DNA of 64,000 bases from an uncultured Selenomonas sp. (lineage in GTDB: Bacteria > Bacillota > Negativicutes > Selenomonadales > Selenomonadaceae). Both the position numbers and the translations under genes were made by a program. Of the stretch, positions 49,524 to 52,486 are shown in pieces. The notes beneath the pieces are model-generated. The model worked only from the letters and a program-made list of their open reading frames with translations. It ran no database searches and had not been told where the DNA came from. The stretch spans positions 1-64,000 of the forward strand of contig CAMVGU010000016.1 of the NCBI GenBank assembly GCA_947167105.1, read 5' to 3'. Each line of letters opens with the position of its first letter. Position 1 is the first letter of the stretch.

Positions 49524-52202
49524 TCACCTCAATTTTTCCAAGTCAGCCAGACGGGCCTCCAGAGCACGCCGCTGCTCCTCCAGGCCGGAAAGCTTCTCAC
49601 GCTCGCCAGCCACAACCTCAGCCGGAGCCTTGGCCAGGAACTTCTCGTTCGCAAGCTTCTTGGAAGTACCCAGAATAACCTTTGCCAGCTTATCAAGCTC
49701 TTTAGTCAGGCGGGCGCTCTCCTTATCCACATCAATCAAGCCCTTCAGCGGCAGATAGACTTCGACACCTGCTGCCACACCTGCCATGGCATTCTCCGGC
49801 TTGGCCGCGCCAACGGCCAGCAGCGTCACTGGCTCAGCCGCCGCCAGTGTCTGTATGTAGCTTTCATTGGCCGCAACCACGGAGCGCAATTTCTCATCAG
49901 CAACGCCCAGAATAACTTCGCTCTTATGTCCAGGTGCCACACCTACCTCTGCCCGCAGGTTGCGTGCAGTCTTGATGACCTCCATAACCGCAGTCATTTC
50001 CGCTTCAGCCGTCTTATCAATGCGGCTCTCATCAAGATCCAGGCTCGGCCAGTCAGCCACCATGATGCTCTTTACCCTCTCATCATGGGGCACCTTCTGC
50101 CAGATTTCCTCGGTCAGGAACGGCATGAAGGGATGCAGCAGGCGCAATGTGCGCTCCAGCACATAGGACAGTACATAGATAGCCGTATGACGGGCGCGCT
50201 CATTTTCCTTATCGTAGAGGCGAGCCTTGGTCAGCTCGATATACCAGTCGCAGAACTCATTCCAGATAAATTCGTAAATCATACGGCCGGCTTCGCCCAG
50301 CTCGAATTTATCAAGGTTCTCCGTCACGCCCTTGGCAGTCTGGGTGTAGCGGGACAGTATCCAGCGGTCGGCCAGGGTCAAATCCTCATCTGTCGGTACA
50401 AAGGTCTTATCATAGCCCTCGCCCTGAATATTCATCAGCATATAGCGGGATGCGTTCCAAATCTTATTCGCAAAGTTACGGGAGCTCTCCACCCGTTCCC
50501 AATAGAAGCGCATATCATTGCCCGGCGTATTGCCGGTAATCAGCATGAAACGCAGGGTATCCGCACCGTATTTCTCGATGACCTCCAAAGGATCAATGCC
50601 GTTGCCCAGGGACTTGGACATCTTGCGGCCCTGGCTGTCGCGCACGAGGCCATGAATGAACACATGGCGGAAGGGGATATCCTTGCCAAACTCCAGGCCC
50701 ATCATGACCATACGCGCCACCCAGAAGAAAATAATATCGTAGCCCGTAACCAGCGTAGCCGTAGGATAGAAATGCTTCAGTTCCTCTGTCTCATCCGGCC
50801 AGCCCAAGGTCTCGAAAGGCCAGAGTCCGGAAGAAAACCAGGTATCCAGCACATCTTCGTCCTGGCAGATGTGCTGACTGTGGCAGTGGGGGCACTCAGT
50901 GAGGTCAGTGCGGGAGACGGAGGTCTCGCCGCAATCCTCACAGTACCATGCAGGTATGCGGTGGCCCCACCAGAGCTGGCGGGAAATGCACCAATCGCGG
51001 ATATTTTCCAGCCAGTTTTCGTAAATCTTCGTGAAGCGGGAGGGCACAAACTCAATCCGCCCGTCCCGTACTGCCTCGATGGCGGGCCTTGCCAGGCTCT
51101 CCATCTTCACAAACCACTGCTTGGAAACCAGGGGCTCAATGGTGGAATGACAGCGGGAGCAGTGGCCGACAGCGTGCTCATGTTCCTCAACTGAGACCAG
51201 CACCCCCGTTTCCTCCAGCTCCTTGACCAGTGCCTTGCGGCATTCATAGCGATCCATGCCCTCGTATTTGCCTGCGCCTTCCAGCATATGGCCATCATTG
51301 CCGATGACCTTGACCTGCTCCAAATTATGGCGCAGGCCCATCTCGAAGTCATTGGGGTCATGGGCCGGCGTAACCTTAACAGCACCCGTGCCGAACTCCT
51401 TGTCCACATACTCATCTGCAAAAAGCGGAATACGGCGGTTCACGATAGGCAGGATCAGCGTCTTGCCGATCAAATCCTTATAGCGCTCATCATCCGGGTG
51501 GACTGCGACACCGGTATCGCCAAACATTGTCTCAGGACGGGTCGTGGCTATCTCAACATATCTATCCTCGCCTTCAATCTGATAGCGCAGGTGCCACAGA
51601 TGCCCCTGCTCCGTCTCATGCTCCACCTCGATATCAGAAATGGCGGTATTGCAGGAGGGACACCAGTTCGTAATGCGCGTGCCCTGATAGATGAGCCCTT
51701 TTTCATACAGACTTACAAAGACCTCACGCACTGCACGAGAGCAGCCTTCGTCCATGGTGAAACGCTCACGCTCCCAGTCGCAGGAAGACCCCAGGGAGCG
51801 CAACTGGTACATGATGCGGCTGCCATACTGCTCCTTCCAGTCCCACACGCGTTCCAGGAATTTCTCACGCCCAAGCTCATAGCGGTTTGTGCCTTCTTCA
51901 CGGAGAGTTCCCTCAACCTTGGCCTGGGTAGCAATGCCTGCATGGTCACAGCCCGGTACCCAGGTTGTATTAAAGCCCTGCATGCGATGGTAGCGAATCA
52001 GAATGTCCTGCAGCGTCTCGTCCAGGGCATGACCCATATGCAGCTGTCCCGTGACATTCGGCGGCGGTATCACCATGCTGTAGGGCTGTTTGCTCCTATC
52101 TACTTCTGCATGAAAAAACTTATTTTCTTCCCAGAACTGATACCATTTCTTCTCAAAGGACTGCGGGTCATAGACCTTGGGGATATTCGTCTCCTCTGCC
52201 AT
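49524..52202 (-). CDS. valS: Valine-tRNA ligase
   Basis: The 892 residues match ValRS. There is HMGH (about 55-58) in [16 protein letters not shown], a large CP1 editing domain (about 190-340, [17 protein letters not shown]) and [15 protein letters not shown]. An anticodon-binding helical domain and a C-terminal coiled-coil arm follow ([23 protein letters not shown]). It is the first gene of a valS-folC-ligase-rex transcript. The start ATG lies 24 nt downstream of an intrinsic terminator in a long leader, suggesting attenuation control. Confidence 0.96.
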
Positions 52203-52226
52203 CTTACGGCTCCTTCCTGCACTTGC

Positions 52227-52264
52227 TCAAAAATAAACGCCCTCGCCCAAAGGACGAAGGCGTT
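52227..52264 (-). terminator. Intrinsic terminator (attenuator) in the valS leader
   Basis: On the minus strand AACGCCTTCGTCC-TTT-GGGCGAGGGCGTT forms a 13-bp stem with two G-U pairs, followed by TTTATTTTTG. It lies between the valS promoter and the valS RBS, so transcription must read through it to reach valS. The 5' arm can alternatively pair with GACGAAGACG in the upstream palindrome (52325-52334). Confidence 0.8.
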
Positions 52265-52269
52265 ATATA

Positions 52270-52425
52270 GGAACTGTAGACTTATAACCTAGACATCTTG
52301 CTGGTCTAAATCCGCGTGGATCTGCGTCTTCGTCAGTCGGCATAGCCCGCTATGCCTCCTTCCTCATCCTTGACCACACGAATTTATCCTCAGCAATCTT
52401 GTCTAGTTTATTTCGCTACAGTTCC
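52270..52425. repeat. 156-bp near-palindromic element in the valS leader
   Basis: The ends are perfect inverted 10-mers (GGAACTGTAG / CTACAGTTCC) and the centre is GGCATAGC-CC-GCTATGCC. Between them the arms share inverted blocks CTAGACA, TTGCTG and TAAATnCGnGTGG. The symmetry axis falls exactly mid-element at 52347/52348. It codes for nothing and looks like a MITE-type or large-hairpin repeat lying inside the valS leader. Confidence 0.8.
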
Positions 52426-52457
52426 ATAGTCTGATCGTCTCTTAGATATTCCCAAGA

Positions 52458-52486
52458 ATTTTACCATATAACAGTACAAAATGCAA
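52458..52486 (-). promoter_or_regulatory. Promoter of valS
   Basis: Minus-strand -35 TTGCAT (52481-52486), 17-bp spacer, -10 TAAAAT (52458-52463). It gives a leader of roughly 250 nt containing the palindrome and attenuator. Confidence 0.65.

Follow-up and report, generated by a model that had tools for sequence, protein, structure and literature searches.

A valS leader in an uncultured Selenomonas sp. that very probably lost its T-box body, kept the T-box terminator, and carries a MITE-like element

Results

The window, a 64,000-nucleotide stretch of DNA from an uncultured Selenomonas sp. of the family Selenomonadaceae (genome G000), contains a valS leader that is very probably a gutted T-box: the T-box body was lost, the promoter and terminator were kept, and a MITE-like element was inserted, most likely later, where it remains passive, with valS most likely expressed by read-through. 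The gene itself (49524 to 52202, minus strand) encodes a valyl-tRNA synthetase of 892 amino acids, as indicated by its open reading frame and by Pfam domains PF00133, PF08264, and PF10458, and it is 84 to 92% identical to valS, or valS fragments, from five congeners. Read on the minus strand toward valS, a candidate promoter is followed by a 156-bp palindrome, a 13-bp terminator, the Shine-Dalgarno sequence AAGGAG (52210 to 52215, minus strand; read from the sequence), and valS. The probable promoter, TTGCAT-17-TAAAAT with an extended −10 (52458 to 52486), would combine a possible −35 element TTGCAT (52481 to 52486, minus strand), which agrees with the consensus at three of six positions, with a possible extended −10 element, TGG-TAAAAT (52458 to 52463, minus strand), located 17 nt away; a consensus promoter scan of the leader did not report this combination. 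Between the putative promoter and the palindrome, GACGATCA (52432 to 52439, minus strand) could be a faint remnant of the start of T-box Stem I, which reads GGCGATGA in congeners.

A survey published in 2008 found that T-box control is most widespread for ileS, leuS, and valS (PMC2494555), and an earlier note on this DNA had remarked that no T-box was visible in the valS leader. A covariance model search of the leader for the T-box (RF00230) gave no match, either at the gathering score or at E values of up to 5, the T-box sequence GGTGGNACCRCG was absent even when one mismatch was allowed, and a search of Rfam for known RNAs of any kind returned chance-level matches only. The absence noted earlier was thus borne out, and a valS T-box was present in all five congeners searched, where it scored 121 to 126 bits and ended in CTTTCGTCCTTTGGG; in the window, CCTTCGTCCTTTGGG is still there but the T-box body is not. 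No displaced T-box body was found in G000, and a query with the G003 leader matched only the terminator piece. Four other, weaker T-box matches are retained in G000, one of which precedes a trpF-like gene.

The 13-bp intrinsic terminator that the earlier note had reported lies at 52264 to 52236 on the minus strand (AACGCCTTCGTCCTTTGGGCGAGGGCGTT), where it forms 13 pairs at −20.2 kcal/mol and is followed by the tail TATTTTTGAG. T-box terminators of congeners start with GCGCTTTCGTCCTTTGGG, for which the window counterpart is ACGCCTTCGTCCTTTGGGCGAGGGCGT, and the 13-mer TTCGTCCTTTGGG is common to the window terminator and the T-box terminators of the congeners. The 13-mer occurs once in the window, compared with a shuffled expectation of 0.00. 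We conclude from these sequence matches that the window terminator is homologous to the T-box terminators of relatives and that the leader, by the features tested, is no longer a T-box but descends from one. Like a valS T-box riboswitch (RF00230), it has the same leader position, the same promoter-leader-terminator order, and the same kind of terminator sequence; unlike a valS T-box, it has lost Stem I, the specifier, the T-box sequence, and the antiterminator.

Intergenic terminators are common, and the hairpin could instead belong to the upstream gene, with the valS promoter located downstream of it. Only about 30 nt separate the terminator from the start codon in the window, however, and fewer do so in G012 and G465. 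Moreover, the upstream open reading frame already has its own terminator (52555 to 52531), and the sequence in the valS leader fits T-box terminators, all of which makes assignment to the upstream gene very unlikely.

A second synthetase T-box may also have been lost in G000. A weak T-box match was found beside an ileS-like gene in five of five congeners, and none was reported near the ileS-like gene of G000 (L241, C9:600-2000), the leader of which is very short.

The valS leader was surveyed in about 60 genomes of the family, with a few hits (e.g., G442) that stop short of the leader left unjudged. Most of the genomes carry a T-box sequence and a CTTTCGTCC terminator in the valS leader, and both the T-box and the CTTTCGTCC-type terminator are lacking in some of the more distant members of the family. 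In G018, G465, G012, G446, and G462, a promoter-like sequence is followed after 20 to 50 nt by the terminator alone, with no element; the leaders of G007 and G006 follow this pattern less clearly, and that of G007 is probably terminator-only without the element. At 30 of 30 bases, the G465 terminator matches that of the T-box in its relative G456. In addition, the G465 leader sequence AAGGCGA-AAAAGCAGGCGCTTTCGTCC resembles the start of a T-box fused to its end (in G005, AAGGCGATGACGG ... CCACGAAAGCAGGCGCTTTCGTCC), a form that deletion between short repeats would produce. In a tree of valS proteins, G000 groups as the sister of four congeners that carry the T-box (support, 99/97), and the terminator-only state requires about five changes on the tree, at least two of which are forced by well-supported branches. 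The comparison with relatives proposed in the earlier note thus did turn up the terminator without the element, and because terminator-only relatives lack it, we conclude that loss of a T-box needs no element. Terminator-only T-box remnants were not found described in the limited collection of literature searched.

One way in which a terminator could be retained is if the terminator-only leader works as an attenuator without the T-box and answers to some signal or antitermination factor. Strong terminators (−22 to −30 kcal/mol) are present in three g8 species and two g14 species, some of them a few nucleotides from the Shine-Dalgarno sequence, and their retention in three species within a single genus (g8) is a hint that function was kept. 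Nonetheless, no conserved antiterminator or aptamer-like sequence was seen, leaders of 20 to 50 nt offer little room, and the T tracts are interrupted in two of the three g8 species (TTTCTTTC), so that we regard such an attenuator as unlikely. We likewise give little credence to a convergent mode of valS control, in which the T-box body would have been lost several times over while the strong terminator stayed, creating a promoter-proximal, terminator-only attenuator opened by a factor or by the state of the polymerase, the mobile-hairpin insertion being harmless.

The palindrome (52270 to 52425) is a MITE-like element, here called family 1, which was recognized from its copies in the genome and from a copy in congener G005 that is 98% identical and lies at a different locus. 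The earlier note had described a near-palindrome of 156 bp whose terminal inverted repeats match exactly over 10 bp and whose core is perfectly centered, and each of these held: the repeat GGAACTGTAG lies at 52270 to 52279 (plus strand) and again at the other end at 52416 to 52425 (minus strand; CTACAGTTCC on the opposite reading), and the central hairpin, GGCATAGC-CC-GCTATGCC, lies at 52339 to 52356, within a core common to several element families. The 26-nt arms of the palindrome are 81% complementary, and its RNA fold reaches −73.7 kcal/mol (z = −11.0), with none of 200 shuffles as stable. The element has no open reading frame. The left flank, ATA (52267 to 52269), equals the right flank (52426 to 52428), consistent with a putative 3-bp target duplication.

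A genome-wide search, as the earlier note had suggested, indicated that the element is multicopy and dispersed, with 4 near-full copies and about 8 short derivatives of 50 to 59 bp in which the middle is missing; these numbers come from search tools rather than from a whole-genome sequence file. Long copies away from valS were found near-full at C1:71886 and, with one end missing, at C53:44 and C11:78283, and sister families in G000 have other ends but the same central core. Across the fetched loci, 33 element copies have TAA or TTA on both sides, compared with ATA on both sides of the valS copy; matching TAA or TTA flanks of this kind indicate that 3 bp of the target were duplicated. The proposed examination of covariation among copies indicated that the central stem is preserved through paired changes (CATAGC/GCTATG, CGTAGC/GCTACG, and CATAC/GTATG), and the two flanks of the stem remain dissimilar to each other. 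The core, CGTTGTCGTCAGTCGRC...GYCTCCTTCCTCCGCCTTG, was found in Selenomonas, Schwartzia, Megasphaera, and other members of the class and also in some bins labelled Lachnospiraceae or Blautia.

By the features tested, we conclude that the palindrome is a MITE: it has exact 10-bp terminal inverted repeats, it is short, free of open reading frames, dispersed, and multicopy, and it has target-site duplications in the 33 copies flanked by TAA or TTA, with the ATA/ATA of the valS copy being weaker. Bacterial MITEs include BOX, RUP, and SPRITE in pneumococcus and QMITEs in Coxiella (PMC10969869). The element resembles these (PMC10969869) in being a short, dispersed sequence without an open reading frame, with terminal inverted repeats, a short target duplication, and an RNA hairpin, and differs from them in that one conserved asymmetric central core is common to several families whose ends have diverged and in that no parent transposase was found. 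Strings of the core sequence had no match in the text of the literature searched, in which MITEs and Selenomonas are named together but on a different topic.

A parent transposase was sought in family PF01609. None bracketed by the terminal inverted repeat of the element was found in G000 or G003, and no long inverted-repeat pair enclosing a transposase was found in the fetched loci. IS5-type elements generate a TNA target duplication. As a lead only, the element is like IS5-type elements in its 3-bp T(A/T)A duplication and in a terminal inverted repeat that starts with GGAACTGT, and unlike them in having no such bracketed PF01609 transposase in G000 or G003. A span of 878 bp in G001, enclosed by two TIR-like ends, proved to be an ordinary element beside an acetyltransferase-like gene. 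Copies in G003 (L233, L234, L235, and L236; 182 to 200 bp) have extra small hairpins in the central loop and, in some copies, also beside the core. Another palindromic family, with ends TAGGGCGTGTTGATTAA and a related center (CATAGCCCCACTATG), was observed in L152 near 1518 to 1720 (G000 C3), directly next to a solitary end of the family to which the valS element belongs.

The matched ATA/ATA flanks favor insertion after the deletion and suggest that the leader was already shortened when the element arrived. Against this reading, ATA departs from the usual TWA, and three matching base pairs would arise by chance once in 64 cases. Alternatively, the element itself could have caused the loss by inserting into an intact T-box, after which the body was removed, and the upstream order altered, through a deletion next to the element or through recombination between copies. 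Consistent with such a sequence of events, the element lies exactly at the deletion site, the upstream genes differ from those of congeners, and two other long copies (L003 and L004) are truncated at one end. T-box bodies are gone without the element in several other leaders, however, and matched flanks would be unexpected after an adjacent deletion, such that loss caused by the element is possible but the less probable course. The earlier note had suggested that a MITE replaced the T-box; both the MITE and the absence of the T-box were supported, but "replaced" is too strong, as several relatives lost the T-box body free of the element. Because the gene order upstream of valS is unlike that of congeners, with a NiaR-like gene on another contig, a rearrangement by way of the element is possible, as is a join made inside the repeat during assembly. 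Even with an assembly join, the junction of the element and the terminator would still be T-box-free.

The earlier note had also offered the palindrome as a new attenuation element, in which GACGAAGACG would pair with the terminator arm as an antiterminator. Complementarity at 9 of 10 positions does exist between the two, although as evidence it is weak, with a P value of 0.025 when only Watson-Crick pairs are considered and 0.34 once G-U pairs are counted. Competition with the terminator fails on energy, as the forced antiterminator fold was −58.9 kcal/mol compared with −104.9 kcal/mol for the free fold, a cost of about 46 kcal/mol. Moreover, GACGAAGACG lies inside the core, which is shared by copies beside unrelated genes and by copies from other genomes. 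Both the fold energy and the conservation of the pairing segment in copies at unrelated places led to rejection of the antiterminator model, and we consider a role for the palindrome as an attenuation element extremely improbable. In the minimum free energy fold of the leader, the element hairpin and the terminator form side by side, and because the two fold separately and the forced antiterminator is costly, the element looks passive.

Discussion

We infer that an ancestor of G000 had valS under the control of a tRNA-sensing T-box and that deletion of the body, from Stem I to the antiterminator, left the promoter and the T-box terminator. A 156-bp nonautonomous MITE-like element would then have landed between them with a 3-bp target duplication, and its transcript would form its own long hairpin and leave the terminator intact, that is, a passive 5′ hairpin. 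Transcription of valS would proceed by constitutive read-through, or leakage, of the old terminator without tRNA sensing.

The retained terminator raises the question of how an essential gene such as valS stays expressed or controlled. The related valS leaders represent an in-between state of an RNA regulator, with the sensor deleted, the terminator kept, and an essential gene downstream, and they make it possible to test how such a regulator comes apart and whether a terminator left on its own is tolerated or put to new use.

Mobile hairpins settle in leader RNAs, including a TPP riboswitch in G000 itself. A review of MITEs only suggests that they could form parts of riboswitches or terminators, and T-box-like motifs are mentioned there in BOX elements (PMC10969869). 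In G000, a 50-bp short element copy with TAA duplications lies inside the TPP riboswitch (L239 1-401, C20:37300-37700; L311), which scores 37.6 bits with the insertion counted, below the gathering score, and precedes a thiM-thiE-thiD-like operon, with gene names taken from reading the translations rather than from a family search. In the same genome, a T-box terminator and a trpF-like gene are separated by an element that belongs to another family but shares the core (L242, C8:64800-66300). In G001, a very short TIR-TIR remnant of about 26 bp separates a T-box terminator from a pheS-like start (L243, C8:624400-625300), and in G003, a promoter-like sequence and a purine riboswitch scoring 61.3 bits flank a 200-bp copy (L234 96-385, C46).
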